Of a DNA stretch of 50,037 nt, positions 268-10,032 are shown piece by piece. Both the position numbers and the translations under genes were made by a program. The first letter of the stretch is position 1. Every line of letters starts with the position of its first letter. Source of the stretch: an uncultured Thiocystis sp. (GTDB lineage: Bacteria; Pseudomonadota; Gammaproteobacteria; Chromatiales; Chromatiaceae); assembly GCF_903866365.1 (NCBI RefSeq), contig NZ_CAIPNF010000125.1, positions 1-50,037 on the forward strand, read 5' to 3'. The notes beneath the pieces are model-generated. The model was not told where the DNA came from and did no database searches. It saw only the letters and a program-made list of their open reading frames with translations.

Positions 268-833
268 TCCCGCTGACCGAAGACGATCTCGAGCTGATTC
301 TTCCGTGGCGCAACGCCCCAGCCGTGCGGCGCAATATGTACAGCCATCACGAGATCACCCCGGATGAGCACCGCGCCTGGTTCCAGCGCATGTGTCAAGA
401 TCCCGCCATGCGCTGGTATCTCGCTCGCGACAGTCACGGAACGCCGACAGGAGTCGTCTACTTCACCGACCTCGATCCGGGGCAGGGGAGCGCCTTTTGG
501 GGGTTTTACGCCAGACCCGACGCCACGCCCGGCACGGGGACGCGGATTCTCTATGCCTCGCTCTAACTGGCCTTTGGCGAGTTGAGTCTGCACAAGCTCA
601 ATGGCGAGGCGCTAGTTTCCAATTCGGCATCCGTCAATCTGCACAAAAAATTCGGTTTTACTCGGGAGGGTGTTTTTCGTGATCAACATTTCGATGGTAC
701 GCACTACGTCGACGTGATCCGATTCGGTTTGCTTTCCGCCGAATGGGAGCCGCAACGTGACCGTCTGCGCGCTCGCATTGCGCAACTGGACGCCCTGACG
801 GACCAGCGGAAATCTACCCCCCCCCCCCCGTAA
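258..833 (+). pseudogene. pseH: pseH-like GNAT acetyltransferase interrupted by an in-frame stop
   Basis: PseH acetylates the 4-amino group of the UDP-linked altrosamine intermediate in pseudaminic acid synthesis, using acetyl-CoA. The N-terminal 102 codons resemble the family (LTEDDLELILPWRN, then a GVVYFTDLD strand). They are followed by TAA at 564-566. After that stop the same frame stays open to 833 and continues the GNAT fold, with LHKLNGEAL and KFGFTREGVFRDQHF, which are hallmarks of the C-terminal acetyl-CoA-binding half. No frameshift is needed to join the halves, so one nonsense codon separates them. A TTG at 582 could in theory restart translation of the second half. The gene runs into a 13-C tract at its 3' end. 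A sequencing error is possible, as are readthrough or complementation by another gene. Confidence 0.7.
817..829 (+). repeat. Poly-C tract (13 C) at the pseH / formyltransferase junction
   Basis: Thirteen consecutive C residues lie at the 3' end of the pseH frame, just before the codons that begin homology of the next gene (832 onward). With 13 C the pseH frame reads four Pro codons and stops at 831-833. Removing one C would put pseH in frame with the formyltransferase and fuse them. Homopolymer tracts of this kind act as phase-variation switches in flagellar-glycan loci of other bacteria. The length could also be an assembly or sequencing error. Confidence 0.8.
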
Positions 834-876
834 AATCCTGATCCTGTCCGATGCCGAAAGCTGGATTAACGTCTAT

Positions 877-1494
877 GTGGAGGATCTTGTGATCGACTGG
901 GGCGAACTGGGTCATGAAGTGCGTTGGGCGCACCAGATCGAGGAATCGCCCGGCGCGGATTTCTGCTTCTGTCTCAGTTTCGGTCGCCTCGTGCCGAGCG
1001 CCACGCGGGCCTTGTTCGGCCATACCCTGGTGGTGCATGAAAGCGATCTGCCGCACGGCAAGGGCTGGTCGCCGCTGACCTGGCAGATCCTGGAGGGCCG
1101 CGCCCGCATCCCGGTGACGCTCTTTGAGGCGGCCGCAAACATCGACAGCGGAGCGATCTATGCTCAACGCTGGATTGAGTTCCAGGGCCATGAACTGGTG
1201 GACGAGCTGCGCGCCGCCCAGGCGGCAGCTACGCTGGATCTGTGCCACTGGTTCGTCGAGCATTATCCGGCCAGCGTCGCGCAGGCCCGACCGCAGACTG
1301 GCGCGGAGAGCCTTTACCCTCGCCGTGGCCCCGACGACAGCCGGCTTGATCCCTGCCGGACCATCGCCGAGCAGTTCGATTTATTGCGGGTAGTGGACAA
1401 CCGGCGCTATCCGGCGTTTTTCGAGTGGCGGGGGCGGCGGTATCGCATCGCGATCAGCCACCATGCGAATGAATCCAGAAGTCACCGAGTTTGA
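877..1494 (+). CDS. Sugar N-formyltransferase-like protein of the pse locus
   Basis: The product resembles formyl_trans_N-type enzymes that transfer a formyl group from formyl-tetrahydrofolate to an amino sugar. Visible signatures are VVHESDLPHGKGWSPL (the counterpart of the HPSLLP loop), PVTLFEA followed by DSGAIY, and a C-terminal VDNRRYPAFFEWRGRRYRI segment. The usual Asn before the catalytic His is replaced by Val. The start is unclear: homologous-looking codons (KILILSDAESWIN) extend upstream to 832, but there is no ATG/GTG/TTG in frame between the TGA at 796 and the GTG at 877. The intact gene may need a fusion or a lost start across the poly-C tract. After the last recognisable motif the final dozen residues look like replacement sequence. 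This is not methionyl-tRNA formyltransferase, which is larger and lies elsewhere. Position suggests an N-formyl variant of pseudaminic acid on flagellin. Confidence 0.7.
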   Translation: MEDLVIDWGELGHEVRWAHQIEESPGADFCFCLSFGRLVPSATRALFGHTLVVHESDLPHGKGWSPLTWQILEGRARIPVTLFEAAANIDSGAIYAQRWIEFQGHELVDELRAAQAAATLDLCHWFVEHYPASVAQARPQTGAESLYPRRGPDDSRLDPCRTIAEQFDLLRVVDNRRYPAFFEWRGRRYRIAISHHANESRSHRV

Positions 1495-1501
1495 CATTGA
1501 C

Positions 1502-2602
1502 ATGCTTCAACGACTCTACATCGATAATTATCGCAGTTTCGTCAATTTTGAGTTCAAGCCAGAAGCACTCTGTCTCCTGGTTGGCGAAAACGGCGGCGGC
1601 AAGAGCACGATTCTCGACGTCATCGCCTTGTTGCGCGATTTTGTCACCGGGAAAGTAACCGTGGATGCGTTTCCGACCGCCACACTGACACGCTGGGATG
1701 CACGGCCGCTGCAACGCTTCGAGGCTGATTTCTGGATTGAAGGACAGATGTTCAGCTACCGCCTCGTCATCGAACATGAAATCCAGCGTAGTTTGCAACG
1801 GGTCCAGCAGGAGTTCCTGGAACTCGATGGCAAACCGCTCTACGCCTTTCGGGATCGTGTTGCGCAGCTCTATCGAGATGATCATAGCCAAGGCCCCACC
1901 ATTGCGTTCGACTGGTCGCGGAGTGGTATCGGGATGCTCCAGTCCGGCCCAAGCAATCTGTATCTGAGCCGGTTTCGCGAGCACCTCGGTCGCATCCTCG
2001 TGCTGGGCCTCATTCCAGCCATGATCGCCGCTGAATCGGAGCGGGAAACATTGGTTCTGGATCGAGCCGGCCATGATTTCGTGTCCTGGTATCGCGCGAT
2101 GGCCCTGGAGAATCCAGCCGCGACCATGAAAGTGGTGACGGCCCTGCGCGAAATGATGCCTGGGCTGGCGGCGTTACCGTTACGCGAGAGTGGCAGCAAA
2201 CGTCTACTCAAGGTTCAATTCGACGGGGTTGCTGGCGCACAGACGCGGTATCAGGAATACGGCTTCGACGAACTGTCCGATGGTCAACGCGCGCTGATGA
2301 TTCTGTACGCGCTGCTCTATCTGTATGAAGATCGTTCACTGTTGCTGTGCCTCGACGAGCCGGACAACTATGTCGCCCTGCGCGAGATACAACCCTGGCT
2401 GGCTGAATTGCAGGAACGCTGCGCGACCAGCGGCGGCATTCAAGCGATTCTCGTCTCGCACCATCCCGAGTTGATGAACTATCTGGGCGACGAACGCATT
2501 CTGCTGATCGAGCGCGATCAGGGCGGCCCGACCCGCGTCAAACCCTTCGCATCCACCGATGGGCTGGATGCAGGCGAGACGCTGGCGCGAGGCTGGCAAT
2601 GA
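1502..2602 (+). CDS. AAA/ABC-type ATPase of a two-gene ATPase-TOPRIM pair
   Basis: This 366-aa ATPase belongs to the SMC/OLD-like (AAA_15/AAA_21) type. It has Walker A GENGGGKST near the N-terminus, a signature-like DELSDGQRALMIL, Walker B LLLCLDEPDN and a switch His in ILVSHHPE. There is no long coiled-coil arm, only an insertion of about 230 residues between Walker A and the signature. I chose ATG 1502 because MLQRLYIDNYRSFVNF is the expected N-terminal strand. In-frame ATGs at 1463 and 1469 would overlap the previous gene. The stop overlaps the next start as ATGA (2599-2602), so the two products are probably made together. In such pairs the ATPase usually senses or gates and the TOPRIM partner acts. 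The locus, inside a glycan operon, suggests horizontal insertion. The defence role is inferred. Confidence 0.8.
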   Translation: MLQRLYIDNYRSFVNFEFKPEALCLLVGENGGGKSTILDVIALLRDFVTGKVTVDAFPTATLTRWDARPLQRFEADFWIEGQMFSYRLVIEHEIQRSLQRVQQEFLELDGKPLYAFRDRVAQLYRDDHSQGPTIAFDWSRSGIGMLQSGPSNLYLSRFREHLGRILVLGLIPAMIAAESERETLVLDRAGHDFVSWYRAMALENPAATMKVVTALREMMPGLAALPLRESGSKRLLKVQFDGVAGAQTRYQEYGFDELSDGQRALMILYALLYLYEDRSLLLCLDEPDNYVALREIQPWLAELQERCATSGGIQAILVSHHPELMNYLGDERILLIERDQGGPTRVKPFASTDGLDAGETLARGWQ

Positions 2603-3168
2603 CCCGCCCCAGCGCGACCGAGGTGATCCTGCTGTGCGAGGACCAACGCCATGAGCAATTCTGCCGACGTTTTCTGCTTGAGCGTGGCGTGTCCGCGAGG
2701 CGAATCCGCGCCTGCATTGCTCCCGCCGGACGGGGCGATGCGAAGCAATGGGTGATCGATCGCTATCCACAGGAATTGCGTGCATATCGCAGCAAGGCCA
2801 ACCGTATCAACAATGCGCTAATCGTGATGACCGATCTCGACCAGCAAAAGATAGGGCAACGCCGCCAAACACTTCAGATCGCTTGTCAGGCGGTCGATGT
2901 CGCGGATGTCGCGCCCGGCGAGCGGATTCTGATTGCATTGCCAAAATGGGCGATCGAGACCTGGATTCTCACGCTGGTGGGCCAGACAGTGGCCGAAGAC
3001 GAACGAATTCAGCCGACTCATAAGCAACGGGCTGCCGGTCAAATCCGCGTGGCGGCAAAGTTACTCGCGACTTTGTGTGCATCGCGGCAGGGTGGACAGA
3101 TACCGGAGACCTTGTCGGCATTGCACGACACTTGTTCTCAATTCCATGGTTTGAGGGAGACTTTGTGA
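2599..3168 (+). CDS. TOPRIM-like partner protein of the AAA ATPase
   Basis: The 189-aa protein begins with a strand and a conserved acid (EVILLCEDQRHEQFCRRFL). A second acidic motif, ALIVMTDLD, follows around residue 75. The spacing and the DxD pattern match a TOPRIM fold (a metal-binding Glu followed by Asp-x-Asp). Later features are a KWAIETWIL helix and a basic C-terminal region. TOPRIM partners of ATPases occur in anti-phage systems such as PARIS (AriA/AriB) and OLD/Gabija-type nucleases, but here the two domains are separate genes and the sequence is not clearly AriB. It is coupled to the ATPase by a 4-base overlap. I infer a nuclease or metal-dependent effector; no function is proven by the sequence. 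Confidence 0.65.
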   Translation: MTRPSATEVILLCEDQRHEQFCRRFLLERGVSARRIRACIAPAGRGDAKQWVIDRYPQELRAYRSKANRINNALIVMTDLDQQKIGQRRQTLQIACQAVDVADVAPGERILIALPKWAIETWILTLVGQTVAEDERIQPTHKQRAAGQIRVAAKLLATLCASRQGGQIPETLSALHDTCSQFHGLRETL

Positions 3169-3203
3169 TTCTCGGTGTCATCAGCCATGAGTGATCAACT
3201 ACC

Positions 3204-3653
3204 ATGAACAACAAGTACAGCATTGAGCAGCGTCAACTCTTGTCGGGTTGCCTCCCTCAACTCCATGTTCTCTTGGATCGTTGCTACTCACGTCCGCCGC
3301 GAGATGTGTTTTACCGACTGATCGAGCAATATCGTACAGGTTTTCCGGCCTGGCTCGCGCGTTCCGGGGACGGGCGGATCATCGGGTTCATCCATCTTGC
3401 GCCGAATAGCAAGGGCGGCACCCTGGAGACACTTGCGGTGGATCCAGACTTTCGACATCTCGGCATTGCACGGGCACTTGTGAACCACTTGCTCGATGCG
3501 ACGTCTGGTGTCGTGTCATTGACCACGCGGATTCCCGCGTTTTTCGCTACCCAGGGATTTCAGTCGATCAGTGTGTTGCCGGATCAATCCGTCTTCATGA
3601 TCCATGTCCATTTCGATCGTGAAGACTTATTGCCATCGGAAGTCATCGAATGA
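3204..3653 (+). CDS. GNAT family N-acetyltransferase
   Basis: This 149-aa GNAT protein has a typical motif A, ETLAVDPDFRHLGIARALV, matching the acetyl-CoA pyrophosphate loop (R/Q-x-x-G-x-G/A). It is preceded by a GRIIGFIHLAP strand. The substrate is not recognisable. It begins 35 bp after the TOPRIM-like gene, with no strong ribosome binding site. Its TGA overlaps the ATG of the following pseI remnant as ATGA (3650-3653), so before the locus was rearranged it was coupled to a pseI-type gene. It could be a sugar acetyltransferase of the glycan pathway, partly replacing the broken pseH, or part of the inserted cassette. Sequence alone does not decide. Confidence 0.75.
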   Translation: MNNKYSIEQRQLLSGCLPQLHVLLDRCYSRPPRDVFYRLIEQYRTGFPAWLARSGDGRIIGFIHLAPNSKGGTLETLAVDPDFRHLGIARALVNHLLDATSGVVSLTTRIPAFFATQGFQSISVLPDQSVFMIHVHFDREDLLPSEVIE

Positions 3654-3752
3654 TCAAGATCGTCGATCATCCTGTTGGCCATAACCACCCACCCTTCGTC
3701 ATCGCTTGAGATGTCCGGCAACCACAACCAATTGTTGGAGCGGGCGTTGGCG
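3650..3752 (+). pseudogene. pseI: 5' remnant of a second pseI copy
   Basis: Translation from ATG 3650 gives the start of a pseudaminic acid synthase (HPPFVIA) and then stops at TGA 3707-3709. A one-base insertion puts the rest (EMSGNHNQ then LLERALA) in another frame. Bases 3689-3752 match 4688-4750 of the intact pseI with only a few differences. Similarity ends abruptly at 3752. The remnant and the intact gene form direct repeats around a roughly 0.9-kb segment that contains the UPF0175/DUF3368 pair. Confidence 0.85.
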
Positions 3753-3910
3753 CCCGGCCGATCCGACCACTTCGCGACAGTGCCACATGCGTTGGACCGT
3801 CATGACTCGGCATTGGGGGGCTTGGCTTCCGACACCCTGAGAGGGATGTCGCCTACACTGAAACCCAGGATATTCCCGGCAAGCGCAATACATTGACTGG
3901 AGCCTTCGCT

Positions 3911-4171
3911 ATGACCATGACGTTACGTATTCCTGAAGACATTGCCGCGGCGATCAAGTGGCCGCGCGATCAGCTTGACCATCAATTGGAGACAGAACTC
4001 GCGTACGCTCTGTATGCGCGCGGACTCGCATCGATGGGTACGGCTCGCCGTCTGGCCTCGCTTGACAAATGGGCTTTCCTCGAAGGCCTTGCGGAGCGAC
4101 GCTTGGCCAGGCATTACGGCGAAATGGAATTGGAGGAAGATATTGAGTACGCAAGAGCCGGTCATCAGTAA
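3911..4171 (+). CDS. UPF0175 family antitoxin-like protein
   Basis: The 86-aa protein matches the UPF0175 pattern: an N-terminal TLRIPEDI strand, then ELAYALYARGLASMGTARRLA and LDKWAFLEGLAERRLARHY, followed by an acidic tail (ELEEDIEYA). UPF0175 proteins are small helical DNA-binding-type proteins usually encoded just before PIN-like DUF3368 proteins, and are thought to be the antitoxin half. The start at 3911 has a GGAG at 3899-3902, eight bases upstream. An ATG at 3917 is an alternative. Its 3' end overlaps the next gene by 29 bases. The pair lies between two copies of the pseI 5' end, a sign of insertion into the glycan operon. Confidence 0.8.
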   Translation: MTMTLRIPEDIAAAIKWPRDQLDHQLETELAYALYARGLASMGTARRLASLDKWAFLEGLAERRLARHYGEMELEEDIEYARAGHQ

Positions 4172-4643
4172 TTCCTCTCCATTGATCCACCTTGCCAAGA
4201 TTGATCAGTTGGGTTTATTGCCGGGCTGCTTTGGTGAGGTGCTGATTCCTCGCGCGGTCTATGATGAATGCGTGACGGAGGGCAGGGACCGGCCCGAGAT
4301 GGCAATGATCAAGCAGGCCGCTTGGCTGCGCGTGGTCGAGGTCGAGAACCTTGATCTGGTCCGGCTTCTCCGCGCGGAGATCGACCGCGGTGAAGCCGAG
4401 GCCATCGCGCTCGCCTTGGAGCAGCGAAGATCGCTTCTCTTGCTCGACGATTCTGATGCGCGGGAAAAGGCGCGCATCTTACGGCTGCGAATGACTGGCA
4501 CGTTAGGTGTGCTCCTTTGGGCCAAGCGGGCGGGGAAGATCGCATCCTTATCGGATCAGTTGAAGGCACTTCGCGATACTGGTTTTTGGCTGAGTCGGCG
4601 GTTGACTGATCGATTGTTGCTGGAGGCGGGAGAAGGGTCATGA
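4143..4643 (+). CDS. DUF3368 PIN-like toxin candidate
   Basis: The 166-aa product starts with VISNSSPLIHLAKI, the characteristic first strand of DUF3368 (a PIN-domain relative with Asn-x-Ser in place of the first Asp motif). It continues with a LDRGEAEAIALA-like segment (here EIDRGEAEAIALALE) and LLLLDDSDAR, which hold the other acidic residues expected at a PIN active site. The TTG at 4143 is the best in-frame start and overlaps the antitoxin gene, which is common for these pairs. PIN-type toxins cleave RNA; activity here is inferred from family resemblance. The stop overlaps the pseI start as ATGA (4640-4643), so pseI may now depend on transcription and translation through this module. Confidence 0.75.
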   Translation: MSTQEPVISNSSPLIHLAKIDQLGLLPGCFGEVLIPRAVYDECVTEGRDRPEMAMIKQAAWLRVVEVENLDLVRLLRAEIDRGEAEAIALALEQRRSLLLLDDSDAREKARILRLRMTGTLGVLLWAKRAGKIASLSDQLKALRDTGFWLSRRLTDRLLLEAGEGS

Positions 4644-5695
4644 GCAGTGCCATCGTCATGGCGGATTGGCCGATTGGGGCGACTCATCCACCCTTCGTCA
4701 TCGCCGAGATGTCCGGCAACCACAACCAATCGCTGGAGCGGGCGTTGGCGATCGTCGAGGCGGCGGCGCGTGCCGGTGCCCATGCCATCAAGCTTCAGAC
4801 CTACACCGCCGACACCATGACCCTGCCGGTCGTCAGCGGCGACTTCTTCATCAGCGACCCAAACAGCCTCTGGCACGGGCACAGTCTGTATGAGTTATAC
4901 CAAATCGCCCACACCCCCTGGGAGTGGCACGCCCCGATCATGGCGCGGGCGCGAGACTTGGGTATCCTCTGCTTGAGCACGCCGTTCGACGAAACGGCGG
5001 TGGATTTCCTCGAAGGGCTCGACTGCCCCTGCTACAAGATCGCCTCCTTCGAGAACGCCGATCTACCCCTGATCCGCAAGGTCGCCGCCACTGGCAAGCC
5101 GGTCATCGTCTCCACCGGCATGGCCACGCTGGCCGAACTCGACGAAACCATGCGCACCCTGCGCGAAGGCGGCTGTCAGGACATCGTGCTGCTCAAGTGC
5201 ACCAGCACCTATCCGGCCAGCCCGGAGAATAGCCATCTCAACACCCTCCCGCACCTGCGCGACCTGTTCGGCTGCGAGGTCGGCCTGTCGGACCATACCC
5301 TCGGGATCGGCGTCAGCGTGGCGGCGGTCGCGCTGGGTGCGACCGTCATCGAAAAGCACTTCACGCTCAGCCGCGCCGATGGCGGCGTCGACAGCGCCTT
5401 TTCGCTGGAACCCGCCGAAATGGCCGCGCTGGTCACCGAAACCGAACGCGCCTGGCAGGCGCTCGGCGGTATCCATTACGGACCGACCGAGGCAGAGAAG
5501 CCCTCGCTGCGCTTCCGCCGTTCGATCTACGCCGCCGCCGATCTCAAGACCGGCGACATCTTGACGCCCGAGAATCTGCGCATTGTGCGTCCCGGTTTCG
5601 GCCTGGCGCCGAAGTATTACGAGACCCTGCTTGGGCGTCGGGTGAACCGAGATCTCGCCATGGGGACGGCGATGGCATGGGAGTACCTCGGCTGA
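4640..5695 (+). CDS. pseI: Pseudaminic acid synthase PseI
   Basis: PseI condenses phosphoenolpyruvate with the 2,4-diacetamido-2,4,6-trideoxy-altrose intermediate to make pseudaminic acid. The 351-aa protein has the NeuB-like TIM barrel: FVIAEMSGNHNQ near the start, AIKLQTYTADTMT, and VGLSDHTLGIGVSVAAVALGATVIEKHFTL. A C-terminal SAF (antifreeze-like) domain follows (SIYAAADLKTGDILT to GRRVNRDLAMGTAM). Length and domain order are normal and the reading frame is intact. The start at 4640 overlaps the stop of the toxin-like gene; an internal ATG at 4658 is possible. Location just upstream of fliC points to flagellin glycosylation. With pseH interrupted upstream, whether the pathway still works depends on genes outside the window. 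Confidence 0.93.
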   Translation: MSSAIVMADWPIGATHPPFVIAEMSGNHNQSLERALAIVEAAARAGAHAIKLQTYTADTMTLPVVSGDFFISDPNSLWHGHSLYELYQIAHTPWEWHAPIMARARDLGILCLSTPFDETAVDFLEGLDCPCYKIASFENADLPLIRKVAATGKPVIVSTGMATLAELDETMRTLREGGCQDIVLLKCTSTYPASPENSHLNTLPHLRDLFGCEVGLSDHTLGIGVSVAAVALGATVIEKHFTLSRADGGVDSAFSLEPAEMAALVTETERAWQALGGIHYGPTEAEKPSLRFRRSIYAAADLKTGDILTPENLRIVRPGFGLAPKYYETLLGRRVNRDLAMGTAMAWEYLG

Positions 5696-5799
5696 CTCAG
5701 TCAATGACAACAGGCGGAGAGAGGGTCGGGATCCGCAGCGCCTTCTTTTCCGCCGGGCGCTACACTGGACCCCATGTCCATTGGTCGGTTGCATGTCTC

Positions 5800-7353
5800 A
5801 TGACCCAACCCCGTCGCAAACTCCCCATCGGAATCCAAACCTTCGCCAAGATCCGCGAGGGTGAGTATTACTATGTCGACAAGACGCCCCTGGCCTGGCG
5901 TCTGGCCCAAACCTCCGGCTATTACTTTCTCTCCCGTCCGCGCCGGTTCGGCAAGAGCCTCTTTCTCGACACCCTCAAAGAGCTTTTCGAGGGCAACGAA
6001 CCGCTGTTTCGGGGGCTGGACATCCATCCGCGCTGGGACTGGACGGTGCGTCATCCGGTGATCGCCATCAGCTTCGGCGGCGGGGTGCTCCAGACCCGGG
6101 CGGAACTGGATCGGCGCATCCTCGACATCCTGCGCGTCAACCAGGTGCGTTTGAGCCTGACCTGTCCGGATCCCCAGGATGTCGCTGGCTGTTTCGCCGA
6201 ACTGATCCGCCTCGCGCACGAACACACCGGCCAACGCGCGGTGGTACTGATCGATGAATACGACAAACCCATCCTCGATAACATTACCGATCCCGCCACC
6301 GCGTGCGCCATGCGCGAGGGGTTGAAGAATCTCTATTCGGTCATCAAGGATCAAGACGCCCATCTGCGTTTCGTCTTCCTGACCGGGGTCTCCAAATTCA
6401 GCAAGGTCAGCCTTTTTTCGGGCCTGAACAATCTGCGCGATATCACCCTGTCGCCCGAGTATTCGACCCTCTGCGGCTATACCGACGCGGATGTCGACAC
6501 CGTCTTCACGCCCGAACTCGATGGACTCGACCGCGACGACATCCGCCGCTGGTACAACGGCTATAACTGGACGGGCGAGGCGGTCTACAACCCCTTCGAT
6601 CTGCTGCTGCTGTTTCAGGAACGCCAATTTCGCCCCTGGTGGTTCGAGACCGGCACCCCGACGTTTCTCATTCGTCTTCTGACCGAGCGCGAGACCTGGT
6701 TACCGAAGCTGGGCGAACTGGAGACCGACGCCGACCTGCTCTCCACCTTCGAGGTCGACGACATCCCCACCGAGGCGCTGATGTTCCAAGCCGGGTATCT
6801 GACCATCGCGCGCGAGGAACTGCTCGGCGGCACCTACTATTACCAGCTCCGCTTCCCCAACCGCGAGGTTTACCAAAGCCTCTATCACAGCCTGCTACGC
6901 GCCTGGACGCAGGAGCCTCAGGCAACCGTCAAAAATCGCAAGCAACTCTATCGATTGCTCCTGGCCAATGACCTGACGGGCCTGAAAGACCTGTTTCACG
7001 CCTTCTTCGCCAGCATCCCCAGCGACTGGTATCGCAACAATCCCATCGCCCGGTACGAAGGCTACTATGCCAGCGTCTTCTACAGCTACTTCGCCGCGGT
7101 TGGTCTGGACATCACGCTGGAGGACGCCACCAATCAGGGACGGATCGACATGACCGTGCGCTTCAACAGTCGGATTTATCTGTTCGAGTTCAAAGTGGTG
7201 GAACTGGCGCCGGAGGGACGCGCCCTGCAACAGATCAAGGACCAGGGCTATGCCGACAAGTACCGCGCCTTGGGCCAGCCGATCCATCTGATCGGGGTGG
7301 AGTTCTCGCGCGAGGGGCGCAATGTCGTGGGGTTCGAAGTCGAGACGCTGTGA
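5800..7353 (+). CDS. AAA-ATPase-like / PD-(D/E)XK nuclease-like protein (copy 1)
   Basis: This 517-aa protein has the two-part architecture AAA-ATPase_like (PF09820) plus a C-terminal PDDEXK_9 domain. It opens with KLPIGIQTFAKIREG and YYYVDKT, then a Walker A-like SRPRRFGKSLF and Walker B VVLIDEYDKPILDN. A WYNGYNWTGEAVYNPFDLL block follows. The C-terminal nuclease-like segment GRIDMTVRFNSRIYLFEFKV supplies Asp and Glu-x-Lys. I chose ATG 5800 over upstream in-frame starts because paralogs begin right at this conserved block. Such proteins are expanded in many purple sulfur bacteria and other genomes, and their role is unknown (mobile-element or defence related ideas exist). A second copy lies at 15042-16592 on the other strand. 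Confidence 0.85.
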   Translation: MTQPRRKLPIGIQTFAKIREGEYYYVDKTPLAWRLAQTSGYYFLSRPRRFGKSLFLDTLKELFEGNEPLFRGLDIHPRWDWTVRHPVIAISFGGGVLQTRAELDRRILDILRVNQVRLSLTCPDPQDVAGCFAELIRLAHEHTGQRAVVLIDEYDKPILDNITDPATACAMREGLKNLYSVIKDQDAHLRFVFLTGVSKFSKVSLFSGLNNLRDITLSPEYSTLCGYTDADVDTVFTPELDGLDRDDIRRWYNGYNWTGEAVYNPFDLLLLFQERQFRPWWFETGTPTFLIRLLTERETWLPKLGELETDADLLSTFEVDDIPTEALMFQAGYLTIAREELLGGTYYYQLRFPNREVYQSLYHSLLRAWTQEPQATVKNRKQLYRLLLANDLTGLKDLFHAFFASIPSDWYRNNPIARYEGYYASVFYSYFAAVGLDITLEDATNQGRIDMTVRFNSRIYLFEFKVVELAPEGRALQQIKDQGYADKYRALGQPIHLIGVEFSREGRNVVGFEVETL

Positions 7354-7659
7354 TGGTCCGGTGACAGTGACCTCCTTATCATCTGCCGATCCGAGGTGGT
7401 CGCCAGGATGCGGCGCGCACCAGCCAATGGCGAGCGTCGCTAACGAAGTCGGTTAAGCTTGGTCTGACAGGTTGAGTCTGGCAAGCGGCATGATCCAGAT
7501 AGGACGGGTCGAATACTCCCGGCTCCCTGACCGGCGCACCTGCCAGTTTCTTGACGCGCATGCCGGACGCGACATTTGCCCCATCCGGCTTTCCGTTCAA
7601 TCCCCCGTCCCGTCTTTCGGAACGTCGTCGCAAGTTCGCGGCGCGGGCGCGGATGGCGC

Positions 7660-7686
7660 TTTAGGGCGCGCCCGACTGGCCGATAA
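7660..7686 (+). promoter_or_regulatory. Possible second FliA promoter
   Basis: GCCGATAA at 7679-7686 is an exact match to the sigma-28 -10 element. The -35 position 11 bases upstream (TTTAGGGC) matches TAAAGTTT poorly, so activity is uncertain. Confidence 0.3.
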
Positions 7687-7719
7687 CTTGCTTCGACGGG
7701 AGGCGTAAGGTTTCGGTTC

Positions 7720-7746
7720 TAAAGCTTTTGGTCCACTGGCCGATAC
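7720..7746 (+). promoter_or_regulatory. FliA (sigma-28) promoter of fliC
   Basis: TAAAGCTT at 7720-7727, an 11-base spacer and GCCGATAC at 7739-7746 match the flagellar sigma-28 consensus (TAAAGTTT-N11-GCCGATAA) with one mismatch in each element. It sits about 85 bases before the fliC start, as expected for a late flagellar gene. Confidence 0.88.
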
Positions 7747-7830
7747 CCCAATCGAACTATCCGTTATCACCCCACGGCAGACCGCTGATGCCCAGCAGAT
7801 CGCCGGTTCGACGAAGACAGGAGAACAGTC

Positions 7831-10032
7831 ATGGCAATGGTCATCAACACCAATGTTGCGTCGCTCAATGCACAGCGCAATATCACCAAGTCTCAGGGCT
7901 CCCTGAGTCAGTCCATGGAACGCTTGAGCAGCGGCCTGCGCATCAACTCCGCCAAGGACGACGCGGCGGGCTCGGCCATCGTCAGCCGCCTGACCTCGCA
8001 GGTGAAGGGGCTCGATCAGGCGGTGCGCAATGCCAATGACGGGATCTCGCTGGTGCAGACCGCCGAGGGTGCCTTGAGCGAGTCGAGCAACATCCTGCAG
8101 CGCATGCGCGAGTTGTCGGTGCAGTCCGCCAACGGCACCTACACCAGCGGCAACCGCACCACCCTGAACGCCGAGACCCAGCAGTTGGTCAAGGAACTCG
8201 ACCGCATCTCCAGCAGCACCAATTTCAATGGACTGAACCTGCTGGACGGCACCTCACAAGATGTGAAGTTGCAGATCGGCGCCGAGGCGAACCAGACGAT
8301 TACCGTCAGCATCGGTACGCTCGACGCCAAATCGCTGGGTGTGTCGGAGTCCGTGGGTGTGGGGTCGATCGGGCGGACGGCGTCCGAGACCGTAGTAGCT
8401 CACGCAACGGCTAGCACGGTCGCTGCGGCCATGTCGGCCGCTGTTTCAAACAGCACCACTGGAACGCAGGCCCTGGGTACCGGCGATCTCGTTATCAACG
8501 GTATCGCGATCGATAGCGCCAAAGGGTCATCCGATAATGCCTCCGCCTATGGCAAGGAGGCCAGCGCCATCTCGACAGCGGCGGCCATCAATGCGAAGAG
8601 CGATCAGACCGGTGTTACCGCGATCGTGGGCGAAACCCGCGTCGGCGGGAGCGCCATGGCCACCGGCCCAGGTTTGGGCGGCGCAGCCACCGGAGTGATT
8701 GCGCTGAATGGCGTCAAGATCAACCTAACGATCAGCGCGGTCGCCACGGGAACTGCTTCGGCCGATAATGCGGCCAATCGCGCAAACATCATCAAGGCGA
8801 TCAATCTGGAAAGTGACCGCACAGGGGTCATCGCGACCGATTCCGGGACTGATAATGGCGGAATTACCCTCACCGCCGCAGACGGGCGCAACATCAGCCT
8901 GCACATGGCTTCAGGCTCTTTAAGCGCGGCCAATACGGGTATCGGCGGTCTTGCGACCACTGCCGGTGCACTGGGCGTCTCGCTCACCACCGGCACCGTC
9001 ACCCTGGTGTCTTCGGGCGGGAAGCCGATCGAGATCACCTCTGGCTCCGAGGGTCACTCGATCGATGCGGGTTTCACGGAAGGCACCTATACCGGGAACG
9101 CCACGCAGATCTCCTCGAAACTCGCTGATTCGACGCAAGCCATGACGGCGGGCAACGTCTTCGTCAATGGCGTGTCGGTGGGGCCATCCTACGCCACGGA
9201 CGATACGGCCTCCTCTGGCTCCAAGGCCGCCAGCGCCATCGCCAAGGCAGCGGCTTTCAATTCAGTCTCCGACAAGACCGGGGTGACCGCGACGGTCAAC
9301 CAGAATCGTGCCGACAACACGACCGCTCAGGTGTCCGGAGCCGCGAGCGTTGCTGGAACCATCAATGGGGTGAGCTTTGTCGGCTTTAATACGACTGTGG
9401 GCGACTTGAGCGCCAACCGCACGGCGTTGGTGAATGCGATCAATGAGATCTCCGATCAGACTGGGGTGAAAGCCATCGATACCGGCGAGAAAGGCTCGGC
9501 CGATGGTGGTGGTGTCCAGCTTGTTGCCGAGGACGGTCGCAACATCATCACGAATATTTCGAATGGTGAAAATGTCGGTTTTGACGCTGGCGCCAAGACC
9601 TTCGTCGGCGAATTCACGCTCAGCTCCGACAAGGAGATCACTATCACGCGCGGGACGGATACCAATCTTTCCTACTCGGGCCTGGCCTTGGGTAACTACG
9701 GCGGCGGCAAGGACGGCCAGTCGCTCTCCAGCATCGACATCTCGACCGTGGACGGGGCGAACAAGGCGATCAAGGCGATTGACAACGCCCTCGAAACGGT
9801 CAACAACGTGCGGGCCGATCTGGGTGCGGTGAACAACCGGTTGGACTTCACCATCAACAACCTGTCGAGCATCTCGCAGAACGCCACGGCCTCGCGCTCG
9901 CGCATCCAGGACGCGGACTTTGCGTCAGAAACGGCGATGCTCTCCCGGTCGCAGGTGTTGCAGCAGGCGAGTTCGGCGATGCTGGCCCAGGCCAACTCGG
10001 CACCGCAGCAGGTGCTCTCGCTCCTGCGGTAA
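7831..10032 (+). CDS. fliC: Flagellin FliC, unusually long
   Basis: The flagellar filament subunit, secreted by the flagellar type III apparatus and polymerised under the FliD cap. The N-terminal D0/D1 region ([17 protein letters not shown] to about residue 170) and the C-terminal D0 region (about 650-733, ending [18 protein letters not shown]) are canonical. The middle of about 480 residues is Thr/Ser/Ala/Gly-rich and carries flagellin_IN-type repeats. One arm, near residues 220-350, contains [20 protein letters not shown] and [15 protein letters not shown] related arm, near 440-580, contains [20 protein letters not shown] and [14 protein letters not shown]. At 733 aa it is far longer than the usual 490-aa flagellin. 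The many surface Ser/Thr are plausible sites for pseudaminic-acid attachment. The start has AGGAGA upstream, and a sigma-28 promoter drives it. Confidence 0.95.

Follow-up and report, generated by a model that had tools for sequence, protein, structure and literature searches.

An overlapping ATPase and TOPRIM-type gene pair from an uncultured Thiocystis sp. that looks like a rare, separate branch of split ATPase-TOPRIM systems

The window considered here, 50,037 nucleotides long, is the whole of one contig (C125) from an uncultured Thiocystis sp., so that context upstream of the contig start is missing. Two genes on its forward strand overlap by an ATGA at 2599-2602: the first, at 1502-2602, codes for an OLD/ABC-type ATPase of 366 amino acids, and the second, at 2599-3168, starts within the stop of the first and codes for a protein of 189 amino acids. 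Both reading frames and their overlap are as described in an initial annotation of this DNA. The ATG at 1502 is preferred as the ATPase start over the mechanical ATG at 1463 because relatives begin with MLxRLY or similar. In the following list of features, A3 is a 7-row ATPase alignment (the window protein and 6 relatives), A6 is a set of DUF4276-type proteins, and 18/18 refers to an 18-row alignment of small proteins that omits two loci, L029 and L030, in which the small gene is broken or partial.

1502..2602, forward strand: OLD/ABC-type AAA_21/AAA_15 ATPase, the proposed sensor/regulator (Pfam, PADLOC, 17-row tree group)
1583..1606, forward strand: Walker A GENGGGKS, residues 28-35 (G28, N30, G31, G33 and K34 invariant in A3)
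2273..2287, forward strand: ABC signature LSDGQ, residues 258-262 (L258, S259 and G261 invariant in A3)
2354..2359, forward strand: Walker B D285-E286 (invariant in A3)
2456..2464, forward strand: H-loop SHH, residues 319-321 (S319, H320 and H321 invariant in A3)
2599..3168, forward strand: DUF4276-related TOPRIM-type protein of 189 aa, the proposed nuclease effector (hhalign, AlphaFold2 topology)
2638..2640, forward strand: E14, proposed catalytic Glu following strand 1 (18/18 members; AlphaFold2 model)
2833..2841, forward strand: D79-x-D81 following strand 3 (18/18 members; AlphaFold2 model)
2956..2964, forward strand: E120-x-W122 following strand 4 (18/18; a DUF4276-type pattern, with which the invariant ExW of A6 aligns)
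2995..2997, forward strand: E133, an additional invariant acidic residue (18/18 members)

The ATPase scores over the Pfam cut-off for both AAA_21 (4.5e-15, 56.9 bits) and AAA_15 (37 bits), and it combines this membership with a Walker A, a signature, a Walker B and an H-loop, the combination by which we recognize an OLD-type ABC ATPase. All four motifs had been read from the sequence in the initial annotation and are confirmed by their invariance in A3, where P287 is likewise invariant. Against PADLOC, whose matches are given throughout without PADLOC's own score thresholds, it matches AbiLi (1.6e-22), HEC-01A (2.3e-22) and mad3 (1.6e-20); that is, the window ATPase scores 60-78 bits against several ATPase-TOPRIM system models at once. 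The same holds across the family, in that the HEC-01A, AbiLi, mad3 and AriA models are all matched by 7/7 of the ATPases scanned.

The small protein is far less readily placed. Pfam, with reporting to an E value of 1, returned 0 matches, DUF4276 (PF14103) and DUF4435 included; NCBIfam gave two chance-level matches; PDB sequences gave nothing meaningful (best E value, 0.25); and the only PADLOC matches were to HEC-01B models, weak and partial (best, 3.1e-5, residues 48-124). Pfam on 8 small proteins of the family yielded one DUF3226 match (0.046). Profile-profile comparison was more informative: hhalign of 18 family members against 17 DUF4276/HEC-01B-type proteins gave 96.8% (E value, 2.6e-10; profile residues 7-120), and another comparison, which overlaps the first and uses smaller alignments, reached 95.5% (1.4e-8). 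Subsets of the DUF4276/HEC-01B-type proteins gave 88.9% (five HEC-01B proteins), 75.6% and 62.8%, and reversed controls gave 0.1-0.6% overall and 0.4-0.6% beside the 96.8% result. A6 itself has an invariant E, DxD and ExW. DUF4276 is regarded elsewhere as TOPRIM-like. Judged by these alignments, the small-protein family is related to DUF4276 at the profile-profile level, below the curated Pfam cut-off.

Six residues of the small protein (E14, D79, D81, E120, W122 and E133) are identical across all 18 aligned members. In an AlphaFold2 model of moderate confidence, built from four sequences (pLDDT, 69.9; pTM, 0.74), E14 and the DxD fall in TOPRIM order within a Rossmann-like alpha/beta domain, E14 following strand 1 and the DxD strand 3; E120 follows strand 4. 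The suggestion that a Glu and an Asp-x-Asp are arranged as in a TOPRIM fold is thus backed by the invariant acidic residues, the model topology and the DUF4276 profile homology, and the protein is a putative two-metal nuclease. Structure prediction had been proposed for both proteins; the ATPase model is unusable (pLDDT, 44.6). In Foldseek searches of the PDB with the small-protein model, the top matches were lumazine synthases (TM, about 0.4), with no TOPRIM enzyme title among the best 50 of 1227 matches. The best viral fold match in BFVD was an RloB-like protein, weak and not significant alone (E value, 6.6e-3; TM, about 0.3).

The ATPase gene and the small gene recur together in distantly related bacteria of two phyla. 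We compiled 20 loci, and in 19 of them the ATPase profile matches directly upstream on the same strand; given this pairing and the six residues invariant in 18/18, neither the pairing nor the motifs are due to chance. At the remaining locus, L029, the small gene is broken, lacks a cognate ATPase and sits behind a PtuA-PtuB pair. Three other loci hold damaged copies: the ATPase of L010 is in three pieces; L025 has a fragmentary second copy, and its main-copy ATPase shows profile positions 1-22 and 100-369 alone; and the small gene of L030 is reduced to its end. The family is compact (about 370 plus 190 aa), and one relative genome (G008) carries two further pairs.

The spread of the family is patchy, and profile searches were needed to see it because single-sequence searches underestimated it. 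A first genome-contig scan gave zero matches to the family, and the single-sequence search found 2 of 92 relatives positive, the source genome included. A three-row profile found 8 of 146 genomes of the bacterial family (the source genome included, and one weak match, G444, at 2.9e-4), and the three-row alignment also found the pair, in a genome contig search, in an acidobacterial MAG labelled Candidatus Solibacter. Across the phylum, 12 of 398 genomes gave a match to an eight-row profile: the source genome and 11 from outside its class, two of them by weak matches alone. In a class-wide draw the same profile found 2/369, namely, the source genome and one weak match; the single-sequence search of the class also gave 2/369, namely, the source genome and G107 (7.3e-4, internal stop), which the eight-row profile did not recover in the class draw. 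These draws (relatives, family, class and phylum) overlap. Weak or partial matches (G107, G232, G551:C36, G589:C170, G676 and G680) are counted in the search tallies and left out of the 20 loci; G444 was entered as L030 despite its weak match because its ATPase is intact. In single-sequence searches of 6 same-genus genomes, the small protein was unmatched and the ATPase was unmatched at 1e-15. Searches of phage records (2 queries), plasmids (3 queries) and viral contigs with the small protein all came back empty, as did a scan of viral contigs with the ATPase alignment.

Looser relatives also exist. L011 (from G021; positions 3147-4593), which stands outside the 20 loci, and L099 (2950-4595) each pair an ATPase with a protein of 164-170 aa bearing PED and DFD motifs; one of the two genomes has a recA-like gene alongside (by eye), and in the other the genes are carried by a cyanobacterial plasmid. 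The partner on the cyanobacterial plasmid, 164 aa long, matches the family profile at 1.9e-5. A conjugative cyanobacterial plasmid carries a related ATPase near a VapC gene, without a partner matching the family profile.

In the window, Pfam and NCBIfam place the pair among pseH-like, formyltransferase-like, GNAT, UPF0175 plus DUF3368, pseI and flagellin-like genes. The pseI gene is over the TIGR03586 cut-off, and the flagellin-like gene scores at best 395.5 bits, below that model's 531 cut-off. The pseH-like frame (258-833) is interrupted by an in-frame TAA at 564-566, and the stretch ahead of this stop matches TIGR03585 at 89.3 bits, short of that model's 93.1. Only 7 bp separate the formyltransferase-like stop from the ATPase start, and the G+C content of the pair differs mildly from that of the window (0.58 versus 0.62). 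Downstream of the GNAT gene, the stop of which shares an ATGA with a possible start (by eye; region 3650-3760), lies a 5' fragment of pseI (3686-3752; 93% over 67 bp); the complete pseI is at 4640-5695, and the UPF0175-DUF3368 pair separates the two. Elsewhere in the same genome, one contig (G000:C238) holds a second, partial pseH-formyltransferase stretch (770-2365; 88.5% to window positions 269-1045) that runs into other sequence, and a second copy (3739-4510, 84%) of the open reading frame at window positions 5757-7355. The initial description of a flagellar glycan operon with a GNAT and a toxin-antitoxin-like pair therefore holds for the window and does not generalize: one other copy, on G008:C38 in another genus, directly adjoins pseG (TIGR03590, 290 bits), and a pse gene was recognized beside the pair in just 2/20 loci, on which count a view of the pair as a fixed component of pse operons was dropped.

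Other copies lie between differing genes, e.g., sbcD-like, thiG/htpG-like and threonine-synthase-like genes (by eye). Two genomes, at L054 and L055, share thiG-like and htpG-like genes in the vicinity of the pair (by eye), with another gene intervening in L055. Neighbors were scanned with PADLOC (7 proteins of five loci) and Pfam (six loci), and the remaining loci were inspected by eye. Clear defense neighbors were found in two of the 20: L028, with TmtA (6.5e-128) and a NERD helicase (4.3e-64) next to the pair (region 1032-8308), and L029, with PtuA (7e-156) and PtuB (4.6e-30) at 6230-8203, directly before the broken small gene. The TmtA match in L028 is a large sacsin-like protein. A large NTPase/WD40 protein in L053 matches HEAT-ARM_XIII at 1.4e-52, which may reflect repeats, and PADLOC gave no match for the tubulin-like protein of L027, the L047 neighbor scanned or one of two L009 neighbors. 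A survey for defense islands had been proposed for this pair; at the loci inspected by eye alone, the neighbors mostly resemble ordinary chromosomal genes. Taken together, the varied sites, the patchy spread, the broken copies and the two loci with defense neighbors suggest that the pair is an accessory module.

We favor, as the rather more probable reading, a model in which the two genes form a self-contained accessory immunity module that acts by abortive infection, with the ATPase as the sensor controlling a two-metal nuclease. In this model, the ABC-type ATPase would oligomerize, bind and restrain the small TOPRIM protein, the ATGA overlap keeping the two proteins in step. The ATPase would sense an infection cue, which might be a protein made by the phage or a particular state of the DNA, and an ATP-dependent rearrangement would then free or activate the TOPRIM protein. 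The freed protein would act as a two-metal nuclease via E14, D79/D81 and E120 and cut tRNA or DNA, whether of the host or of the phage, thereby aborting the infection. We infer the complex between the two proteins, the nuclease activity with its trigger and its target, and protection against phages, hence any anti-phage function, from the sequence features described above and by analogy. The precedents come from excerpts of published work: in what is available of PMC12409363, a hexamer of AriA in PARIS sequesters AriB, which is let go upon an Ocr-type trigger and then cleaves tRNA; an excerpt of PMC12111858 describes HEC-04, an ATPase-TOPRIM fusion, as protecting Escherichia coli against T4 and T5 and not against T7 or lambda; several HECs showed antiviral activity, according to part of PMC12988326; and in BREX neighborhoods, pairs of an OLD-ABC ATPase and a nuclease are common, according to a portion of PMC12839542. 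In the literature searched, we saw no such activity described for HEC-01 itself.

The immunity model is supported by the pairing in 19/20 loci, the residues invariant in 18/18, the DUF4276 homology, the PADLOC matches of the ATPase and the AlphaFold2 topology, and further by the patchy presence, the broken copies, the defense neighbors in L028 and L029, and the precedents of PARIS, HEC-04 and the BREX-associated OLD-ABC pairs. Several observations weaken it. Defense neighbors occur in 2/20 loci, one of which (L029) has a broken small gene and lacks its own ATPase; the small protein is unmatched in the phage, plasmid and viral-contig searches, and the ATPase alignment in viral contigs; the ATPase model is unusable; and no TOPRIM enzyme title is among the Foldseek matches listed for the small-protein model. 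An archaeal OLD-family ATPase, moreover, is apparently not antiviral, as far as the available part of PMC12796447 goes, which counts against an immunity reading.

Could the pair instead be a toxin-antitoxin-like or selfish module, in which the ATPase neutralizes a TOPRIM nuclease toxin, the module persists by addiction and any effect on phages is secondary? The overlapping two-gene layout, the patchy spread, the many copies that stand alone among ordinary-looking genes (by eye) and the related ATPase near VapC on the conjugative plasmid would all fit. A full ABC ATPase, however, would be an unusual antitoxin. Relatives of the same architecture are defensive, at least in the excerpts describing PARIS (PMC12409363) and HEC-04 (PMC12111858). 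We regard this explanation as improbable, if the best of the alternatives. A cellular, nondefense role seems to us a little less probable still. Under this explanation, the pair would serve, for example, DNA/RNA repair or the control of flagellar glycan expression, and its place in the pse operon would be functional; the 7-bp gap suggests cotranscription with the formyltransferase-like gene, and the copy that adjoins pseG in another genus points the same way. Against it, a pse gene lies beside the pair in so few loci, and the neighbors differ elsewhere; the 6 same-genus genomes lack a match to the small protein and, at 1e-15, to the ATPase; and the small proteins of the window and L009 are 28-31% identical, no closer than copies elsewhere (up to 36%). 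More speculatively, and with little expectation that it is right, one may imagine a separately evolved split ATPase-TOPRIM branch, distinct from PARIS and HEC-01 and with its own trigger and target, that guards the flagellum or its glycan, killing the cell when flagellum-targeting phages interfere; the pse siting in two genera would then be functional. Finally, the interrupted pseH-like frame, the duplicated pseI fragment and the broken copies elsewhere might suggest a passenger that no longer works in a rearranging operon, but in the window neither gene is truncated and none of the invariant residues is lost, which makes such a remnant very improbable.

What would be gained by pursuing the immunity model? 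ATPase-TOPRIM pairs recur across bacterial immunity, and the function of most TOPRIM halves is said, in the available part of PMC12409363, to be largely unknown. This compact, two-phylum family provides a link to DUF4276. A search with a 12-row DUF4276 profile found no solved structure, and in the literature searched we found no paper naming DUF4276. One member solved and tested would tell whether proteins of the DUF4276 type act as nucleases, and in response to what trigger.

Where, then, does the pair stand among known systems? In a 38-row ATPase tree (midpoint rooted for drawing; L010, L025 and L029 left out), the 17 ATPases of the family form one group at an open fork (82/93), 16 DUF4276/HEC-01-linked ATPases form a separate clade (100/98) and 4 RloA ATPases form a distinct one (100/100). 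The position of the sole DUF4435-linked ATPase is unsure because of its very long branch beside the family, and the family ATPases could conceivably be more closely tied to AriA-type ATPases. In the fused systems, i.e., OLD classes 1-3 (including GajA of Gabija) and HEC-04/IbfA, an ABC ATPase works with a TOPRIM domain (excerpts of PMC10568477 and PMC12111858) in one protein, whereas the window pair is two genes; no GajB or reverse transcriptase was seen among the window neighbors scanned. AbiL is similar in its ATPase (AbiLi, 1.6e-22) and dissimilar in that AbiLii is absent among the PADLOC matches of the small proteins, although the library may or may not contain an AbiLii model. With MADS, the pair shares the mad3-like ATPase (1.6e-20) and weak mad4 matches in 2/8 small proteins (best, 2.6e-4), but the window neighbors are not mad-type (Pfam/NCBIfam scan). 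RloA-RloB likewise joins an ATPase to a small partner, with weak profile similarity between the partners; RloB was rejected as the closest partner family at 31.3% against four RloB sequences, and the RloA ATPases stand in their own clade. PARIS is also a split ATPase plus TOPRIM effector, and 7/7 ATPases scanned match its AriA model; the small protein, by contrast, is just 189 aa, lacks a DUF4435 match and gives 0.1% in hhalign against one DUF4435 protein, and so AriB was rejected as the partner family. Of the families proposed from the outset for profile comparison, DUF4276 is favored, in agreement with the early impression that the partner is not obviously AriB, the DUF4435 side being a single sequence. 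HEC-01, a PADLOC Hma-embedded candidate, has the same layout, in which a gene for a small E-DxD-ExW protein comes after that for the ATPase, and homology extends to both parts; still, the small protein matches HEC-01B weakly and partially (3.1e-5) and the ATPases fall outside the HEC-01/DUF4276 clade, so the pair was not assigned to HEC-01. The source genome has a strong HEC-01B match of its own (G000:C332:9066-9698, 1.8e-92) and a weak one (G000:C460:11751-11936, 7.9e-4). From the tree and the partner comparisons, we therefore treat the pair as its own branch among split ATPase-TOPRIM systems rather than as HEC-01 or PARIS. "Undescribed," the term first applied to it, calls for qualification, since PADLOC already lists distant relatives (HEC-01 and PDC-M25 as candidates, AbiL and MADS as named systems). 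To judge by its sequence, then, the pair looks like a rare, separate branch of a known class that has anti-phage members.
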